Assembly (NCBI GenBank): GCA_002179805.1 | Contig: NAVB01000225.1 | Span: 62,001 to 126,000, forward strand | DNA from: Acanthamoeba lenticulata | Taxonomy: Eukaryota > Discosea > Longamoebia > Acanthamoebidae | DNA length: 64,000 nucleotides | Reading direction: 5' to 3' | In this document: positions 28,338-45,573 of the stretch, piece after piece | How positions within the stretch are numbered: the first letter of the stretch is position 1 | Layout of the letters: every line of letters starts with the position of its first letter | Translations under genes and position numbers: made by a program | Notes under the pieces: generated by a model | Told to the model about the DNA's origin: nothing | The model's input: only the letters and a program-made list of their open reading frames with translations | The model's database searches: none

Positions 28338-31300
28338 ATGGAGCCGCAAAGTGAACTCGAGGTGCGCAAGAGAAAGCGCTCGTCGGGTGGTGAGCCGGCC
28401 GCGCCAAGCAGCATCCAGACAACTGCCAGCAGCTCGCCCGAGGACGAGGACACGCCACCGCAATTCCCGGTGCGCAAGGTGGTGCTGTCCAAGACTGGCA
28501 TCGGCTACTTTGAGCGGTGCGCCAGTCCTCCTCCTCCTCCTCCTCCTCTCACGCTGGTATGGTCGCCCACGCTGAATGTGTGCACCCCAGGGAGGATGAC
28601 GTGGCGGGTGGCCAGCAGTTCCACCTCCAGTTCAAGAGCAGCGACATGAACGACGTACTCAAGTCTCTCACCATCATCCAGCTGCCGGGCGGCGAACCAG
28701 GTGACACCCAATCAGCTTGCTCTATTAAAAACAAAATACACCTTTTTCTGACCGTCTTGCAGGGCGCAAGCGGGCCAAGCCGGGCAGCAATGACGGCGAT
28801 GGTGACGGCGAGGAAGACCGACAGTTGGCGGCCAACAGCCCTGTTAGTGCGTTGCACCCCCGTGGTGGGCGTGCGTGGTAAAGGTAACATGTCGACTCAC
28901 TCCTTCCGCGTGGCGTGCCGACGCGCGCATGCAGGCCTGGTTGCGTCGGTCAGCTACGAGTCGACAAAGCCGTTTGACAAGCAGCTCGACGACCTCTCCA
29001 TCTCGCTCAACGAGCACTCGTGCCTGCGCGAGCTGTTGACGCAGGTCAAGGGCACGCCCGTCGCCGTCGAGGTCATGCGCCAGGGCAAGCGCGAGACCGT
29101 CGAGGGCATCGTCATCGGTACGTCCGGCCGCGTGGTTCGAGGTCTTGTGCCCTCCTGGCTCATGTTGCGCCTTCCTTTTTCCAAAGGGCTGGAGTCAAAG
29201 GAGCGCTACCAGCCCGAGTGCCACACGGCGCACTACTTGGCGCTGCTGGTGGCCGGCCGAGCCGTCCAGTACTTTGACTTGGCGTCGATCGTGCGTCTCC
29301 GCCTCATCAACTACCTGCTGCGCCAAGACCTGCGGCGCCTTCTCGCCATCCACCTCCAGGTGCGTGCGCCCGTGCTCCGCCGTGTGCTCCGCCTTTGAAG
29401 TACCGGGACGATGGTGAGGACGATGATGATTGATGACTGGCGGACGCGCCTGCAGGCCAAGAAGAAGGAGGTCCGATCGGTGACGGGCTACACGCGCGGC
29501 ACCGGCGAGCAGCGCACGGTCCGGGCGTCGTACATCGTCGAGGCGCCCGTCTGGAAGACCACCTACCGCCTCTTCCTCTTCTCTGCTCCCGCCGAGGGCA
29601 ACACCGGCAGCAGCGCCAGTGGGGCCGACGCCATGGCCGTGGTGAACGAGGAGCCTCGGCGCGAGCCGGTCCTGGAGGGATGGGCGCTGGTGGACAACAT
29701 GCAGAACGAGGACTGGCGCGGGGTGGAGCTCTCACTCGTGTCCGGCGCGTCCAACTCGTTCATCTACGACCTCTACAACCCGCGCTTCGCCGCTCGCACC
29801 GAGGTGCTTGCGCGGCTTTCTCTCCTTGTCGTTCACCTCCCCGAGATTGTTGCGCGGGACCCACACCATCAGGTGCTGCGAATGCGCGCAGGTCGAGGTG
29901 GAGCAGGAGGAGACGCTCGCGCCGCCGACGCTCGAGGACGCCATCGCGCAGCACGACGTCGCCGCCCTAGCCCAAGCCGAGGCCCAGCGCGACGAGCGTG
30001 CGAATATGTGCCCTTTCTTCTTTTTATTGGACTTAGAATTATTCTATTTCTTATTCTGATTATTTTTTATTTCCAGGTCGAGCGGCGCCGGTCATCCGCG
30101 CGCGTGGTTCCAGTCCTCCGCCACTGCCAATGCCAACCCAGCCCGCCATGGCGTATCCTGCGCAGTATGCGCAGTATGCGCTACAACCGCAGCAGCCGCA
30201 GCTGCAGCTCCTGATGCAGCAAATGCAGCAACCGGCAGTGCCGGGCGTCATGGCCTTTGGGGCGGGCTACGGCGGCGGTGCCAAGCGGAAGAAGGCCCGC
30301 CGCCGTGACGAGGACGAGGACGAGGATGAGGAGGAGGAAGAGGACGACTTTGGCGAGTGGGACATTCCGCGGTGTCTCTACGAGAACGAGGAAGAGACGG
30401 TTGCGCCCGCGGCGGCGGCTACGGCAGCCCCGTCGTCGGTGGAGGTCGAGGTGGCGCCCAAGAAGATGGAGATGGCCGACCTGTTCCAGTACAAGATCAC
30501 CAGCGCCGTCGACGTCCTCCGCCTCCAGTCGGCCCTCGTGCCCTTTGTCCGCGCGCCCCTCGACGGCGCCGTCAAGGCCGTCGTCTACAACAAGGTCCGC
30601 GCCCCAAGTCATGACGCTGACAATCAGGATGTTGATGTTGACGATGGTGATGATGCTGATGATGAACAGAACGTGCGAGAGGACAACCCGCTGGCGGTGA
30701 TCAAGTTCAAGAACGTGTGCGGCGTGCCGCTCGAGGGCGGGCCGCTGAGCCTGTTCGAGGACGGCGCCTACGTGGGCGAGGCCATGCTGCCGCGGGTCAA
30801 GGTCAACGAGGAGCTGTTCGTGGCTTACGCCGTCGACCTCAAGACGTCGGTCACCGTGACCGAGTCCTCCGAGCGTTACGTCTCTCTCGTGTCCCTTCTT
30901 CTTCTTCTTCTTCTTCTTTTGCTCGCGTTTGGCGCATCGTCTCATCTCATGCTGGTCAACCACACAACAGTCCGGGAGCCCCACCAGGTCGACGCTGGGC
31001 AGGTCGATTGGGAGAGGGGCCAGCTGTACGTGCGGCGGTGGCGCGTGCTGGAGTTCACGTACGTCATCGACAACAAGAACGACCGCCCGATCGACCACTT
31101 TTACCTCGAGGTCCCCCCCCTCTCTTCTTTCTTCTTTCGATGGTCAGCTTTGTCGTGTTTTTGCGGCTGACGTCAGCATGTGGTGGCCACGCGGGACGTC
31201 TCGATCGATCCAGCATACGAGGAAGGGACAGGAGCTCGTGGAGACGCCCGAGCCTGATGCCCGGCTGAACCATCTGTTCCGGTTCAAGCTGGTCGTGCCG

Positions 31301-32277: not shown

Positions 32278-35107
32278 TCACGACTCGGCCGGGTGATTAA
32301 CCTGCCTCCTGTGAGAACGCTTAGGGCGAATTCTCACTGCAAGTGCAGAAAGGAGGCGTACGCCTGCGTCTTCTTGAGCGAGGTACATGGGCTTGAGCAG
32401 GAAATGGTCTGGGTCTTGGCCTGCACCCTCACGCCTGAACTCGAAGAGCCGAACAGCAGTTCTGTGGAAAGTCAGTGATGTGCAGTTCTGGTATTCAAAG
32501 CCGTATGTCTTCATCTGCGCCCTGAAGGCATCCTCTGGGTGGAAGCGATGGGCCATTTCGGCTATGTAGAGAGTGCCGGCGAGTTGCTTGGGGCGGCGAG
32601 ACCCCTTTTTCAGCAGCTTCCGAGCCATCCGGATTGCTGGTCCGATGTCGTCCCCGGACAAGAACGAGAGAGAGAACAGCAGGAAGTCGACCTTCCCTTC
32701 TGTCAGCGTGGCAGCGCTCTCGACGTAGTCACCGCCAATGTAGGAGAGCTTCACTTCTCGCTGACGCGCAGGGTCCAAGAGCGTCTCATAGAGTTCGCGC
32801 TCTGGAAGCGAGTTCCTCCAGTCTTCCAGCTTCGGTACATCGAGGGCCACCACGGAGATGGTCCAGTCTACAATCTCCTCCTCCTCGCCATCTTCGTCGT
32901 TGTTCGCGCTCCGGAATAGCTCCGAATACGTGTGCAGCTTGTGTGCTAGCTCACATGTGCCACTCCCCGCGTCGACCACCGTGAAGGAAGTGTTGCCATC
33001 CCGCAGCCGGTCGATTACAGCGTTGCGGATGAGGTTGGCAATTTGAAACACAGGAGAATTGTGTGTCATATCCCACGAAGCGTTGAGACGGCGCATAGCA
33101 TCGTGGTAGTCGGAGAAGAATTTGCCCTGGGCCATCTTGCGAAAGAACTCCTGGTGACCATCGAGGTAGAGCTGCTTCGTCATGCAGAGGATACCTCCGG
33201 CATCTTGTTCGGTCGTGGGATTGCGGACAGGCTGTCGAGGAGAAGCTCCATTCCCTCGAAAGTAGAGCTCATGAAGTAGTCTGAGGAGGGAGAGAAACGC
33301 GCCGGTCTGATTACAGTAGGAGCGAGTTTGAGTGAAAAAGTTACTGTTTGATCAAAATCACAGTCATATGGCCTTACCTTGCCTATCTGTGGTTCAGCAC
33401 AGAGCAGAACCACACAATTGGAATCCTTCAAAGTTTTGAAGACAGGCCGGTAGCGCTCGTTCCGCTTTTCAGTCTTTTTGTTCTCGTCAATCGACTCTTT
33501 GTCTGGATGATCTTTCAACCTCCCCCCTGTCGTGCCCAGGGTTGCATGCAGCTGCGCACACCGCTGCTTGAGATCTTCGCGTGTCATCGGTTTCGAAAAC
33601 AAACAGTTGAAGACCGTGGCTTGAACTTTCCCATGACTACAACACATAGAATGAGCTGTGAGTGAGGAATGAAAAGCTTCACAGGTGGAGAGGGCTGCTT
33701 ACCCAGCACAGCGCCCTACGTCCTGTTTGAAGGTGCTGAGCTGCAGTATGCTCTCGCGCACGTAGCTACTGCGCACGTCGAAGAAGCGGCAGTTCTTGGA
33801 TATCGTATCACCGCGCTGGCACCGTTGCACCACCGCCAAAAGACCGGTGAGCTTCTCAAACGTAAAGTCTTCTCCACTCGCCTCGCCATCGTGGAACTTG
33901 AACTTGTCGCCGATGAAATTTTTGTGGGCGGCCTTGAGATCCTCCACGTCGCTTTTCCGCTCAAAGCGAACCAGGGCCATGTCGTTGGGATACTCAGCCA
34001 GGTGGCGAATGACTCTGTCAGCTGGAGACTCGCCAGGCTCGTTGCGAGAAAACCTTGCCATCGCTTCTACCCACTCAGTTTTGATTACCGCTGACTGCTC
34101 CACCACTTTCTGATGATGTGGTGCTTGGTGCTCGTAGTTGAGGTCGTAGATAGATCGGTAGGTCTGCCAAGCACATTCAGTGACTGGGGAAACTGCGGTT
34201 CGCAAGGGAAAGGGCGCACCGGTGTTGCAAAGAACTGAGGCTGACTTTGTGCCAGGTCTGAGAGAACCACCGAACACTCCGCGTAGGAGTTGTCGGGCTC
34301 CTGCAACATCTCGGGAGTGGCGCTAATGGGCAGAAAGAGTAACTTGCAGCCTTCCTCCTTTTTTTTCACAACCTCTTGCAGGTACTTGTTCAATTTTGAT
34401 CCAATCTTCGCGCCCCAGTCGAATTCGTCCAGGATGAGCAGGTGGAGGTAGGCCTTGTTGTCAAGTTTATCTGCAGTAACGTGGTATTGATAAGGGATGT
34501 TTGAGGAAGAACAGCGGCCAACGAAGGTACCTACCAAGAAACTCCTTGGCAGCGTTGTCGTCAGGCAAAGAAGCCGAGTTGACAACGATTCCGTTTGCGG
34601 ACCGCAGCTGCGAGGTTTGTCCAAGGCCATCGTCAATGAAGGCCTTGAGACGAGTTTTGGTCTGCTCTTGAAGGGACTTGGCCGCAGGTTGGAGAATGAG
34701 AAGGTTGATAGTGGTAGGCTGCCAGTCCTCTGGCGAAGGCAAGATGTTCTTAATGAGAGCGATTTCCACGACTTTGATGGCAACGTTGCGAGAAAACTGA
34801 TACATGTTCCCGTCGAGTCGATTAGCTGGATCTTGTAACTCAACGCCACGACGGGCCAGTTCCTCTCGTAGTCTGCCATAGAGACCATGAGCATCTACCC
34901 CAACAAAAAAATATTCATAATGCAGGAGCGCAACAATACCCCGCCTCTTCAGGCCTTTCGTTCCGCTCCATGCCGCCAAAGTGGGTGGTGCTCGTTCGTG
35001 CTGCCGAAGGAGAGAAAGACAAACAAGAGAATGGAAGCTTGGGCATTGTGTCGACAACATGTTTGGTCGAAGTATTGATAGCCAGCCTCATAAATAACGT
35101 CCGACAT
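32278..35107 (-). CDS. SF2-helicase-like protein with C-terminal Rrp8-like methyltransferase; motif order permuted
   Basis: A multi-exon protein of about 770 residues. The N-terminal half has SF2-type blocks in order: LLILQPAAKSLQEQTKTRL (Ia), LHLLILDEFDWGAK (motif II, codons near 34418-34438), LLFLPISATPEM (III, near 34320) and DMALVRFERKSDVEDL (IV-like). Next is STFKQDVGRCAGHGKVQATV (VI, around 33703-33728 and across a splice). The only Walker A, LLCAEPQIGKTGAFL, comes afterwards (33378-33398, its final T from the next exon). A class I methyltransferase follows: SFTVVDAGSGTCELAHKL (SAM loop), VDFLLFSLSFLSGDD, LAGTLYIAEMAHRF, GFEYQNCTSLTF, RLFEFRR; this order fits Rrp8. The start is uncertain: ATG 35107 (MSDVIYEAGYQYFDQT) is plausible. 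It lies only 32 bp past DUF4139 gene B. Confidence 0.6.
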
Positions 35108-35139
35108 TCCAAAAAGACCCACAAGAAAATGACAAAGCC

Positions 35140-38097
35140 TCAGGCCTGGACGACGACGGGCTTGGGCGGCTGGAAGAGCTCGGCCGAGTACTTGAGCTCG
35201 GCGTACTTTTTGTTGAGCAGGGTCTGCTCAGCCTCCACGGCCTCGCGCCTCTTCTTGATCGACGCCTTGAGCTTGCGGATCTCCGTCTCCTGCTCCATCA
35301 TCGTCTGCTCTCCCAAGCCCATCAATCACCACCATCAGCGTCATCATCGCCATCTTCATCTTCATCTCCAACATGTGAGAGAGGAAGAGGAGGAGGACAA
35401 GGACCTTGAGGCCGGTGTCGAGCTGGTCCTTCTGGTGCTCGGTGAGCGGCGCCGACTGGTTGTTGAGTCGGTAGACGTCCGACCGGGCGCTGTTCTCGCG
35501 GCTGAGGGCCGTGCGCAGCTGGCTCTCCTCCGTGCTGATCTCCGAGTTCTCCTTGTTGATCCGGTCCCGCTGCGGCAGGATGTCCTTCACCAGCTTGTCC
35601 CGGGCCGCGCCGTCGATGTACTTGAGGTTGTGGTAGTTCTCCACCTGGTCCGCCGAGGCGTGCCTCAGGTCGATCACGCTCTCCTCGAGGATGCGCTCGC
35701 GCACGGCGAAGAGCGTGTCGGCGCCCGCCACGACCTTGATGTGGAACCGGTAGAAGTTCTCCGTCTTGTTCATCGGCTGGTCCGTCTCCGTCAGCTCATA
35801 GTCGCCCTGCTCTCGCCCCGGTGAGTCGTCTTCATCATCGTCATTATCGACCAAGTTGACGATGACGATGGAGGGTACCTTGAAGAAGCGGTGCTCGAGG
35901 AACATGTCGGGGATGTCCTTGGCGCCCTTGTGGGAGAACTTGTACTCCTTCTCGTGCACGCGGTAGCGCATGGTCGTCAGCCGCCCGTTGTCGAGGGTCA
36001 CCTTGTGCACGTTCCTGTACGAGGTGTCGGACTTGGACGACACTCCGACGTTCATCTCCACGCCGAACGGGATGAACTGCTCGCCCACACATACACGCTT
36101 AGAACAGTTCATGACCACGGCCATGGTCACAACATTGAAGTGCACCTTCTCGTCGCCCTTGCGGGTGGTCTCGAGCATGGCCTCGCCGATGCAGGTCTCC
36201 TCGTCAAAGATGGACATGGGGCCGCCGTCGAGGGCCACGTCAAAGGTGTTCTTGAAGCGGACCACCATGAGCGGGTTGGCGGCGTTGACGCCCTCGTTGT
36301 AGAGCGAGCACGACACGGCCGAGCACTCGGCCGACAAGAACGGCACCAGCGCCGACTGGCCGCGCTTGACCGTCACCGGCTTGTCGATCGCGTACGAGAA
36401 CACGTCCACCGGCTTGATCTGCATTCCACAAATAATATTACAATTACAATTTAAAACGAATAAACAAATAGTAATAGCAGTGATTTTGTGGAATTTGAAG
36501 AAGCTACCTTGCGGACAGTGTCTGAGCGCATGGAGGGCTTGGGCGGGACGACGGAGGACGAGTAGGCCGGGCGGGGCGGCTCGACGAACTTGGTCGAGTT
36601 GGAGGACGAGACCTGCCCGATCTGGGCCTCCGACGTGGAGAGCGACGACAGGATGGCGGGCGCGTCCTTGAGGAGCGACTCCGAGTGGAAGGGCAGCACG
36701 TCGGCCAGCTTGGGCGGCTTCTGCGGGGCGTCTTCGTTGACTTTGAGGACCGGCCGCTGGCGGAAGCGGGGCGAGTACAGGTCGTGCGTGAAGGCGTTGG
36801 GCTTGCCGCTCACCAGCGTCAGCTTCACGCCGTTCCTGGTGTGCAGCGCCACACAATGTGCGACACCATCTTTTAGAAACTATTCCAACCATTTAAACAA
36901 ATAAATAAAATTTCTCTCGAATGTAATAAAAAGAAAGAAAGAAATACCAGTCCTCGTCCTGGGTGTTGTCGATGAGGGCCCAGCCCTGGAGGAAGCTTTT
37001 GCCGGGAGTGAGCAGCAGCCGGTAGGAAGTCTTCCACACGGGCGCTTCGATCACGTAGGAGGCCACCAGCGTCCGCTCGCCCTCGCCCTGAAACCACCAA
37101 TCGATCGTCGTCGTCAGCACCATCAAGATCAGCCAGCATCACCACCACAACAAAAGACATCTCAAGAAGGCAAGGCGAACCTTGGCGAAGACGGTGAGCT
37201 TCTTGAGGTCCTTCTTCTTGGCGTTGATGAGCACGTCGAGCAGGTGCTGCAGGTCGTGCCTCAAGGTGGTGTCCTTGAACACTGTTGACGACGGCGTGAT
37301 GATGATGGTGATGATGAAGGCGATGGTGAGGCAAGGACAAGGAGACGTGTGGAGATGAGATGAGGAAGGGAAAGGGTACCAAAGGACTCGAGGTCAAAGA
37401 TGGGGAAGGCCTGGATGGAGTCGTCGTCCATGAGGAGGTTGAGGACCTCCTTTTCCACCACGGCCTCCTGGCTGCCCGCGCTGCCGTCGCCCTTCACGGC
37501 GGGGACGGTCTCCACGACGGTAACTTGCTCGAGGCCCAGGACGGTGCCCTCCACGACAGTGCCGTCGAACAGGGTCAGCGTCACCTCGGCGCCGATGGCC
37601 TGGCGCAGGAGCTCGGTGAGCGAGTTGGTCGGGTCGTTGAGGTGCAGCGACAGCTGCTCGAGCTGCTTTTCGATGGGCGTCTGTGGGGAGAGTGCAGACC
37701 AACAGCCAGCGGTCGATCAGAATCACTACATTGCGATATATATCAATTTAAAAAATAAAAAATAAAAAAAAAAACAACTCAATCATTGAGGAGAGGTGGT
37801 GACCTTGGCCTGGTAGGAGATGGACGCGACTGTGCCGCCACCAATGTCCACTGCAGTGAGAGACTTGAGGACGTCGTTCATCTCGCTGGTTTTGAAGTAC
37901 AAATCTACATCGGTGTCGCCCGTTACTTTCTTCTGCCTGCTCGCAAAGCAGGGCCAAAAATCAGACAAAGCGAGCAAGAAGACGAGCACAGACTGATTGA
38001 ACAAAGAACAGGTGTGGGCAGCAAGGAGAAGCTAGGAGAACCGTTCAAAGTAACCCACGCCATGCTTGAACAGAACGATCTTACGAATGGGGAACAT
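35140..38097 (-). CDS. DUF4139-type protein, paralogue B (diverged, inverted)
   Basis: It starts at ATG 38097 with [19 protein letters not shown], the canonical opening, with no leader. It continues [29 protein letters not shown], then [16 protein letters not shown]. The DUF4139 core has [36 protein letters not shown] and [20 protein letters not shown]. After a Pro/Ser linker come [20 protein letters not shown] and [21 protein letters not shown] helical C-terminus ([20 protein letters not shown]) ends PKPVVVQA. Compared with A and C it lacks the Lys/Glu insert and is clearly more divergent. It may be the ancestral-type copy closest to bacterial relatives; that is inference. It is divergent from copy C across 293 bp and is followed 32 bp later by the helicase/methyltransferase gene on the same strand. 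Confidence 0.75.
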
Positions 38098-41978: not shown

Positions 41979-44900
41979 TTAGTAGATGTCAAAGTAGGAG
42001 TAGAGGTAGGCGCTGTGCGCAGCGGAGAAGCCGCCGTGGATGAGCTTGGTCTGGTCGAACACGAGGCACCGGATGGCGAACGGCGGGTCGTGCTCGATCA
42101 CGTGGTAGCACCTGCACAACACCGTCAGCCAGAGACCCACCTCCCATCTTCATCATCACCACCACGTGTTGAACGGAACGCGTGTGCGGACCCCATGGTG
42201 CGGAGGTCCCAGAGGCAGACGAGGCCGCCACCGCCGGCGGAGATGAGCTTGTGGTCGTCGAACTGCATGCCCCATATCGGGTGGGCCAGGTCGCACCGCC
42301 CGCCGGACCCTTGCGATGTCGTGCTCAGTGCCGCCGCTGGAATCTGATCAAACGGACGAGTGAGGAACCGGTTGGCATACACGACTGCTGCAGCTGCGAC
42401 GCAGAACTCAATCAAAAGTGATTACCTCCAGCGTGTGCACGCATTGCATGGTCTTGGTGTCCCATATGCGAAGCGTTTCATCGCGGCTGCCGCTGATCAC
42501 CTGGAATCCGCCCCCCCCCCACATCACCGCAGCATGAGCCACCAAAGAACGAAGCGAAAGCAAACGCGGAATAAGCGTGCCTTGGAGTGGTCGATCTGGA
42601 GTTTGCTGACCCAGCCCTTGTGGCCCTTCAGCGTGCCCAGGTGCCGCATCGTGCCCAGATCCCACAACTTGACCAGGCAGTCTGTCGCGTCGCCGTGTTA
42701 GATGCAATGAGGCTTATGTGAGCGTCATGAAGAAGATGCCGAGCCGAGGAGATACCTTTGGCGCCCGACGCAAGGGTCGTGTTGCTGCCGGCCATGCACC
42801 AGATGTTGTCCTGCGTCGTTCATCACCACCACCATCATCAGTCTCAGCACGGGAGTGGAAAGTGAGGCACACAAGGTGGGGAGCTCAGTCGAACCTCATG
42901 CATGTTGTGGTAGGTGGTGCACTTGGCCTTGAGGTCGTGGTGCCTGCTTTGCCAATTGGTCCACACTGTGCGCAGGTGCTGGTCAGGCTCACGCTCGCCA
43001 CCAGAGCGGAGAGGAGGGCAGGGGAGAGGCGCGAGGCCGCACCTTTAAAGGTGTTGTCAAAGGAGCCGCTGACGAGGAGGTTGTCCCTGACGTGGAGGCA
43101 CGACACCCACTCGGTGTGGCCCAGCAGTGTCTTGACGCACCGGCGGCTCTCGATGTCCCAGACCTTGATGGCGAGGTCCTCCGAGGCCGAGATCAGGTCC
43201 GTGTAGGTGGTCTTCACGTCCCACACGAGCCCGGCGTGGCCCTGGAATTTGCGAACGCACTTGCCCCGGCACACGTCCCACTGCCTGATCTTGTGGTCCT
43301 GCTCGTCCACGGCCCGGCCCGGCCCGGCCCCTGTGAGCCCACATACAGACACACACACGTCGCCGGGGAGCGACTCTCGAGAGGGAGGCCAACCTCGGAG
43401 CCGGCAAAGAGGGTGCGGCCGTCGTGGTGCATCTGGAGCGACCAGACGCGCGTGACGGGTGCGTTGAGCTGGTAGCAGCACGACGGGTTGGTGGTCCGCC
43501 GGTTGCCTGCGTCCCTCCGCGCCCCCATCGAGTCGCTGCTCACCCCCCCGACCACACAACACAAAGCGCGAGTCATTCTCTGTGGGCACAGGCGCGCGCG
43601 AGGAGGCGAGCAAGCCCAACCTGCGCCTCCGCTTGTCGATATCGACTCCAGAGCCGTAGACGACGGCAGACGTGTGGGCCGAATGCGCGGCGATTGACGA
43701 CGACCACGAGGACGAGGGCGAGCCGCGGTTTCCGTTGGCCGAGGCCGGCGAGACCGATATGGTGATCACCGGAGACGACGACGATGGAGACGGGGACGAG
43801 GACAGAGTCGAGGGCGGTGACGGTGCGCCCCCAGAGCGAGAGTCGCGCCGGAGCAGCGGCGACGACGACGAATAGGAGGAGGACGGGCCCGGCTGACGGC
43901 GGCTGTTGCTGGGCGAGTGTGGCGGGGTGATGAGCGAGAACGACGACGGCGACGACGACAAAGGGTTCCACATCGATGCGCCGCCGCCACTGCTGACACT
44001 GGTACTGGTGCCGCCACCGATGCCGCCCACGGCCGGGGGCGACGACGAGTAGGAGGAAGGGCTGCTGCTGATGCTGCCGCTGAGAAACTGCCGCGGCGGT
44101 TGGTAGCACGACACCGTCCACGCGCTGTTGGTGTCGACGATGTAGCGCTCAAGGCACAGCTTCCGCCAGTGCTCGTAGCTCCGGTATTGCTGCGCAAGGT
44201 AAGTGAGTGATAATGATGTTTGTTGAATGAAGAGGAAGAGGGAGAACCTTGCAGCTGGGGTCTGCGAGCTCGCCGACGTCGACATCGTCGCCCTCCTCGG
44301 AGCCGAGCTCAGACAGGGCGAGGAAGGGCTCGAGCAGCGAGCTGGCCGAGGCCCGTTCGCTCGTCGAGCAGCTGATGGCCTCGGTTGCCAGTGACGACAA
44401 CGACGACATCGATGATGACGCCAGAGAAGTCGATGACGAGGTTGTTGAAGAGGAAGCAGTGGTGGCAGTGCTCGCGAGCGCGGCGGACCCGCCGCCAGCG
44501 CCTACTTCACCAAAGTCATCGCCGGCCTGCTGTTGTTGCACCTGAGCACGCTTCTCGCGCACGCGCCGCCGCCACCGCCATCCGCGCGGCCAGCTCTCGT
44601 TATCGCTGTCGGCGCCGGCTGACTGCGCAGCAGCGTCTGGTGGCGGCTGCGGCTGCTGCTCAGCCGTGCGAGCCTCGGGCCGGGTTCGGACGCGCTGGAG
44701 AGGATTGTCATCGTCATCGGCGTGCCACCAATCCTGATGGTTAGGATCGTCGCCACCACCATGGCCGACCAGCTGCGACGGGTCGACGACGACGGTCGTG
44801 CGCTGTGTGGCGCGGTGGAGGGCGGCGTCGGAGCGGGTCCATAGGGCCAGGTAGGCGCCACGCCACAGGGCGGCTGAGCGCAGCAGCGCGCGCCAGCTGT

Positions 44901-45573
44901 GGCACACGCGCGCGCACGAGGCGAGCGAGGCTACGTCCAGGAAGCTGAGCACGTGGTGCACCATCTCGGGTGGGAGGAGGAACAAGGGCGGTGGTGTAAC
45001 GACAAAAGATGAAGATGGGGAGGGGAACGAAGCGTAAAGTGCATTGAGATCGGATGAGGAGAGTGATGGAATGAGGGAGGACGAAGCATTTCGTGGAATC
45101 GGAGAGCAAATGGAGTGCAGAGAAGAAGCAACGGTGGACAAGTTATACAAGAAGGGACAGGGATTGGAGTGGGGCTCAAAGCAACCACATTGGGGCGAGA
45201 AGATTATGGGGCTCACATGAGGGAAAGCGGCGTAGGATGACGAAGGCGAGAGAGAGGGCGGAGAGGGCGAATTGAAGTGCGGTAAATTGAGATCACCTCT
45301 GCCACTTCGCACTGCACTGGCCTCATCCTGTGAATCGGCCATTTCAAGAGGGTGAGCCTCCTTCTCTTCCTGCCCGTATTTGGAACTTGAGTTGGTGACT
45401 CGCTTGTTTGGTAACACAAGCCCACCAGAGTCGCTGCAGTTGTACAACCTTCTTGCTTCCTGCTGTCGACAAATGGCAACTGCATTTTCTTCTCCATCCT
45501 CATTTCTCGGATGATTTCTTGCACGGTGGTCCTCATTGGTTGTACAGCAGTTGGTTGCCGAGGAGGTCGCCAT
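41979..45573 (-). CDS. F-box/WD40-repeat protein
   Basis: The N-terminal 200 residues are Ser/Pro-rich and disordered. An F-box follows: FLLPPEMVHHVLSFLDVASL and CARVCHSWRALLRSAALW near 45000-44870. A long Asp/Gln/Ser-rich linker and a Ser/Pro segment lead to a WD40 propeller spread over short exons. Its blades include DHKIRQWDVCRGKCVRKFQG, LISASEDLAIKVWDIESRRC, LLVSGSFDNTF, LASGAKDCLVKLWDLGTM, VISGSRDETLRIWDTKTMQC and LISAGGGGLVCLWDLRTM. The stop after YSYFDIY is at 41979. This is the FBXW architecture, an SCF ubiquitin ligase adaptor recognising phosphorylated substrates. The WD part ends with a GH/WD-poor last blade. Substrate unknown. It is divergent from the kinase gene. Confidence 0.87.

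Follow-up and report, generated by a model that had tools for sequence, protein, structure and literature searches.

A permuted SF2 helicase of the GREB1 kind fused to an Rrp8-like methyltransferase in Acanthamoeba lenticulata

GREB1, a mammalian relative of the TAGT glucosyltransferases, has been studied as a steroid-receptor cofactor and is described as a TAGT glycosyltransferase fused to an odd helicase, which is presumed to bind nucleic acids and to be non-catalytic (PMC6163654); it works together with steroid receptors (PMC6163654, a review; PMC10908778). Yeast Rrp8 and human NML are described as the enzymes that introduce N1-methyladenosine (m1A) into 25S/28S large-subunit ribosomal RNA (rRNA; PMC6085284). 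Here we describe a gene from Acanthamoeba lenticulata, contained in a window of 64,000 nucleotides (the whole stretch of DNA analysed, from contig NAVB01000225.1), that encodes a superfamily 2 (SF2) helicase of the GREB1 kind with its P-loop behind motif VI, followed directly by an Rrp8-like methyltransferase. The helicase module belongs to the circularly permuted SF2 (cpSF2) helicases and the permutation itself, though rare, is already known: the original prediction, made from the letters of this stretch, had taken it for a new arrangement, holding that all known SF2 helicases carry Walker A first, which fails against the Pfam family PF20692 with its late P-loop. In the literature searched we found no paper on a cpSF2-methyltransferase fusion, and neither the partner nor the occurrence in protists appears to be described there; the primary GREB1/TAGT domain paper lies beyond that scope and may well mention such fusions.

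Gene structure

The gene is one spliced minus-strand open reading frame of 850 residues, which runs in five exons from 35087 to a stop codon at 32280-32278 and is interrupted by four GT...AG introns of 64, 56, 66 and 71 base pairs (bp); the source DNA has short introns and a G+C content of 0.53-0.64. Before GT-AG joining, the minus strand shows motif II/III, motif VI, the P-loop and the methyltransferase in open frames of their own. Position 35087 marks the edge of the open frame; an in-frame ATG is found at 35060 and conservation begins at about 34841. A search with the single protein sequence returned one relative, P0001 (782 residues, 57% identity over 96% of the queried region), which serves as reference for the junctions in the following list.

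35087-34535, 34470-34220, 34163-33703, 33636-33378 and 33306-32278, minus strand: full exon set, from GT-AG joining of separate open frames
34535..34841, minus strand: exon 1, conserved coding part, with N-terminal helix MYQFSRNVAIKVVEIAL and motif Ia strand INLLILQPAAKSLQEQT (spliced frame, alignment to relatives)
34471..34534, minus strand: intron 1, 64 bp, GTAGGT...CTGCAG; junction gap-free against P0001
34220..34470, minus strand: exon 2, with motif II DEFDWGAK (34429-34406) and motif III SATP (34324-34313) (spliced frame, PF20692)
34164..34219, minus strand: intron 2, 56 bp, GTGCGC...TTGGCAG; P0001 identical across the junction, FFATPTYRSIYDL
33703..34163, minus strand: exon 3, second RecA-like domain, with motif V RGDTI, DVRSSY and motif VI QDVGR (from 33725)
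33637..33702, minus strand: intron 3, 66 bp; P0001 identical across the junction, GRCAGHGK
33378..33636, minus strand: exon 4, linker followed by the strand and loop of the late Walker A, AEPQIGK (33398-33378)
33307..33377, minus strand: intron 4, 71 bp, splitting the P-loop between K and T; P0001 identical across the junction, QIGKTGAFLSLLRLLHELYF
32278..33306, minus strand: exon 5, starting with T of the P-loop, followed by the P-loop helix, the Rrp8-like class I methyltransferase and the stop codon
about 33213-32281, minus strand: methyltransferase domain, with the S-adenosylmethionine (SAM) motif DAGSG at 32973-32959 (PF05148, fold of the relatives' domain)

At junctions 1 to 4 P0001 reads EFREKL, FFATPTYRS, GRCAGHGK and QIGKTGAFL, with zero gaps at all four: since a protein of 57% identity spans every splice junction in this way, helicase and methyltransferase form one gene, and the change of reading frame between motifs III and VI is due to the 56 bp of intron 2. 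The opposite reading is that two adjacent genes, or a faulty assembly, appear here as a single gene and that the late P-loop stems from a separate ATPase; the original prediction itself had named a separate gene for this part as a case that would defeat it. The reading is highly improbable: besides the gap-free junctions, P0001, P0002, P0003 and P0004 all hold the helicase motifs, the P-loop and the SAM-site within a single chain, the record of P0003 being labelled a complete open reading frame. Two separate genes were hence rejected as refuted by the homologues, unless all of these are artefacts, and the claim that the P-loop/methyltransferase part is no gene of its own stands. A missed upstream Walker A was rejected as well, in agreement with the original prediction: the upstream neighbour on the same strand terminates at 35139, no minus-strand frame in the interval towards it (35139-34541) contains the pattern [AG]x4GK[ST], and neither P0002 nor P0003 has an earlier match to it N-terminal to the late P-loop, P0002 beginning with a Met 43 residues ahead of the first conserved helix. 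In the A. lenticulata gene the open frame extends for no more than 94 residues ahead of this helix, so that the gene has no long pre-helicase region of the kind found in GREB1, which is far longer and carries its helicase C-terminally.

Motif order, family membership and relatives

The SF2 motifs I, II, III, V and VI are all present in the 850-residue frame, in a permuted order with motif I last: DEFDW at residue 199, SAT at 234, RGDT at 385, DVRSSY at 397, QDVGR at 415 (motif VI, with the form QxxGRxxG(H/Y)), AEPQIGKT at 502 and, in the methyltransferase, DAGSG at 620. The order II, III, VI and then P-loop had been predicted in just this form; the spacing from motif VI to the P-loop, given as about 100 residues, is in fact 87, its late position being correct. 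The single Walker A of the original prediction was also found, as AEPQIGKT is the sole [AG]x4GK[ST] site of the protein and of all 12 relatives described below (13/13), always C-terminal to motif VI; the 12 homologues recovered are all of permuted order. The motif patterns were composed after the sequences had been seen, and we rejected the bare presence of the P-loop pattern as evidence, since 996 of 20,000 shuffles of the protein contain one. The P-loop nevertheless stands above chance because it is unique and behind motif VI in 13/13 proteins and because an independent Pfam model puts it at this C-terminal site too. One further match, GGKT at residue 129 of P0002, comes with the looser pattern GxnGK[ST] (n from 0 to 5) and lacks the P-loop spacing.

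This Pfam model, PF20692 ('Circularly permuted SF2 helicase found in GREB1 proteins'), matches the protein with an expectation value (E) of 2.6e-17 and 63.2 bits against a curated cut-off of 26.2, and the cut-off is exceeded by all 12 relatives (48.4 to 541.8 bits). The profile search by parts suggested in the original prediction placed the parts as follows: the Ia-II-III piece matches profile positions 36-158 (32.3 bits), the motif VI piece 373-431 (12.6 bits, weak when taken alone) and the P-loop piece alone 679-704 of 716 (29.4 bits), whilst the remainder matches PF05148. As the pieces map onto PF20692 in order, the late P-loop occupies the position known for cpSF2-GREB1, with the motifs in the same order and the P-loop closing the domain C-terminally. 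The difference from GREB1 lies in the partner: the GREB1 helicase is described as fused to a TAGT glycosyltransferase (PMC6163654), whereas here the Rrp8-like methyltransferase fills the chain behind the P-loop. The missing Pfam match to TAGT is weak evidence alone, with none obtained for the GREB1-like relative P0012 either.

The class I Rrp8-like methyltransferase, predicted directly behind the P-loop, was identified there: PF05148 scores 27.5 bits in the whole protein against a cut-off of 27, and 30.3 bits with the methyltransferase piece alone. Scores lie above the cut-off in P0001 (33.1 bits), P0002 (36.9) and P0004 (35.5) and under it in P0003 and P0009-P0011, with no match in P0006 and P0007. 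In predicted models of P0001 and P0003 the nearest solved fold of this domain is nucleomethylin/RRP8, and the domain has the nucleomethylin-type fold. In comparison with Rrp8/nucleomethylin the methyltransferase of this gene is divergent and helicase-fused, and the same genome holds separate, much stronger PF05148 matches on two other contigs, C665 (E 1.3e-68) and C1592 (E 1.0e-54). The Rrp8 genes there (C665:10060-10740 and C1592:9270-9725) are two near-identical copies, perhaps alleles.

To collect relatives, the single-sequence search that returned P0001 was extended by a two-sequence profile, which added P0002 (36%), and a three-sequence profile, which returned 12 proteins including P0001 and P0002, both already inside the query profile. 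Each search scored 7,992-7,995 candidates, those with most words in common with the query and with 0.55-1.75 times its length, so that there are at least 12 relatives and both full-length GREB1 and many further relatives lie outside the reach of these searches. P0003 comes from Lithocolla globosa (Rotosphaerida) and P0004 from Amoeboaphelidium occidentale (Aphelidiomycota), as assigned from the record listing and taxonomy. The compact relatives have about 700-850 residues, with the helicase motifs followed by a methyltransferase end. Motifs II and III are present in 11/11 proteins reaching that region (P0010 and P0011 begin later) and V, VI and I in 13/13; alignment A4, with 11 proteins and without P0012 and the A. 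lenticulata protein, shows no variation in the P-loop or in five residues of motif VI. Since the search is seeded by exact 5-residue words, the exact identity of the octamer is in part an ascertainment effect: outside the P-loop P0008-P0012 share 1-5 words with the query, P0007 shares six and P0003-P0006 share 11-13, of which a few fall in the P-loop helix or arise by chance. P0012 (1307 residues) is called GREB1-like on the strength of its 541.8 bits to PF20692, and Pfam gives no other match (E up to 1) in its last ~240 residues. Its motifs III (345) and V (925) are 580 residues apart, compared to 149-223 in the ten others with both motifs; its second helicase domain thus contains a long inserted stretch. 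In 12/13 proteins motifs V and VI enclose a D-x-R-x-[RS]-Y motif (DVRSSY, residues 397-402 of the A. lenticulata protein); it matches no standard SF2 motif that we recognise and is not present in this form in P0012.

Profile scans of viral contigs (207 pattern matches) and of genome contigs (61) contained no relatives at 1e-3, and the DNA pattern AEPQ-x-GKTG was found in one viral and five genome stretches, none of which (0/6) matches P0001-P0012 by tblastn at 1e-3; the viral stretch alone gave rows at E 0.005-0.1, chiefly the pattern itself. As two collections were scanned with short conserved patterns only, absence from viruses or prokaryotes does not follow. Searches of the A. lenticulata assembly (48.5 megabases, 1825 contigs) with three exons returned only the gene itself and are sensitive to close copies only, because the exon 5 search also missed the Rrp8 genes of this genome; the PF20692 search of the assembly misses even this gene and is uninformative on further copies.

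Proposed function

We propose, with a probability of about 0.6, that the protein is a two-module enzyme in which the permuted helicase acts as an ATP-driven remodeller of nucleic acid that presents the substrate to an Rrp8-like SAM-dependent base methyltransferase. The strand-P-loop-helix unit after motif VI would fold back beside motif II, making the first RecA-like domain complete, and the helicase module would bind and hydrolyse ATP and clamp or remodel a structured nucleic acid, with RNA as the likeliest substrate and DNA as a less likely one. The substrate would be passed to the methyltransferase for methylation of a base, to N1-methyladenosine by analogy with Rrp8; the simplest role for a helicase directly before an Rrp8-like domain would be to open or hold structured RNA. 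Since the methyltransferase begins immediately behind the P-loop helix, binding of the nucleotide and delivery of the substrate may be linked. DNA is a less probable substrate, as is a protein, which would parallel the cofactor role of GREB1.

Several observations weigh against this proposal. The structural comparisons were made with models of P0001 and P0003, relatives and not the A. lenticulata protein itself, which are of middling confidence, and the Foldseek rows to helicases have a high root-mean-square deviation (9-27). The PF05148 match exceeds its cut-off by just 0.5 bit; general methyltransferase profiles outscore PF05148 in P0009-P0011, P0007 matches only general profiles and P0006 none. 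Searched with the single sequence, the Protein Data Bank yielded nothing at E up to 1; searched with the profile, it yielded 2zfu at E 0.079. Further, the N-terminal helix of the protein and its two nearest relatives carries S in place of Q, and the GREB1 helicase is presumed to bind nucleic acids non-catalytically (PMC6163654). The last two points would suit a dead scaffold, with the helicase module binding nucleic acid or protein without use of ATP and the methyltransferase as the sole enzyme. We consider this unlikely in view of motifs II and III in 11/11 proteins and V, VI and I in 13/13, and of the invariant P-loop and five motif VI residues in alignment A4, which would be unusual for a dead ATPase, although the P-loop part is inflated by ascertainment. 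Less likely still is methylation of a protein, for example chromatin or a transcription factor, with the helicase as a targeting platform: such a role would recall the work of GREB1 with steroid receptors (PMC6163654; PMC10908778), whereas the nearest solved fold is that of nucleomethylin/RRP8, described as an rRNA m1A methyltransferase (PMC6085284).

The compact relatives, which retain the helicase motifs and end in a methyltransferase, provide a tractable means of asking if such a helicase can hydrolyse ATP with its P-loop relocated, and on which substrate the module originally acted. They also call the presumed inactivity of the GREB1 helicase into question: the GREB1-like P0012 retains AEPQIGKT, even if it was retrieved partly through these very letters.

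Nature of the rearrangement, evolution and neighbouring genes

Canonical SF2 helicases such as RadD and RIG-I carry motif I at the opposite end of the chain and start with a Q-motif helix. The helicase part of both models aligns with RadD from its residues 1-3 and with RIG-I from 239-244, these alignments beginning at model residues 8-11 (P0001) and 21-23 (P0003), where the Q-motif helix would be expected; the aligner is sequential and gives ranges without residue pairs, and 7 of 50 helicase rows were reported for the P0003 model. Seven of the ten proteins whose sequence includes the N-terminus have Q in an [FY]xxQ context in this helix, S being found in the A. lenticulata protein, P0001 and P0002; the positions were hand-picked from the alignment, and by eye in case of P0012. 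Because the models align from the start of RadD and the N-terminal Q helix is found in 7/10, the comparison suggests that only a strand-P-loop-helix unit was relocated. The circular permutation of the original prediction may thereby be narrowed: the permuted order is present, as in PF20692, and the models suggest this more limited move rather than a full circular permutation. By sequence, RadD gave a weak match in P0003 (11.2 bits, cut-off 720). Foldseek searches against viral structures returned helicases, methyltransferases and unnamed proteins (133 at E up to 0.001).

In an unrooted tree of the helicase part (13 rows) the A. lenticulata protein clusters with P0001 and P0002 (100/99), and P0007-P0011 together with P0012, on a branch of 3.08, split from the remaining rows (100/100). 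Three groups result: a set of P0003-P0006 that also contains the A. lenticulata protein, P0001 and P0002; P0007-P0011; and P0012 alone. Each of the two large groups includes methyltransferase fusions (6/7 and 4/5 rows, the remaining row of each stopping after the P-loop), and the methyltransferase label requires 3 changes on the tree compared to a shuffled mean of 2.8, which shows no extra clustering. With the tree unrooted, the P0012 branch at 3.08 and the label unclustered, the tree does not show the methyltransferase to be ancestral; it agrees equally with an original fusion that GREB1 has lost and with one that arose only once GREB1 had branched off. Tentatively, cpSF2 might be an old eukaryotic ATP-using module with an Rrp8-like nucleic-acid methyltransferase as its first partner, from which animal GREB1 would have arisen by a partner swap to a glycosyltransferase, maybe with a working P-loop; its rearrangement would then be the move of a single strand-P-loop-helix unit that left the Q-motif helix N-terminal, and not a full circular permutation. 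Joined to such a methyltransferase in a protist, this odd helicase would seem to have a wider distribution and more uses than its animal name, GREB1, implies.

Two open frames flank the cpSF2-methyltransferase gene, at 30130-31170 (plus strand) and 35228-36892 (minus strand). They match no Pfam family at 1e-3 and are related to each other, with 64/220 columns identical (E 5e-19). Further along the window, the overlapping minus-strand frames 44149-45573 and 42885-44285 carry an F-box (PF12937) and WD40 repeats and perhaps form one F-box/WD40 gene.
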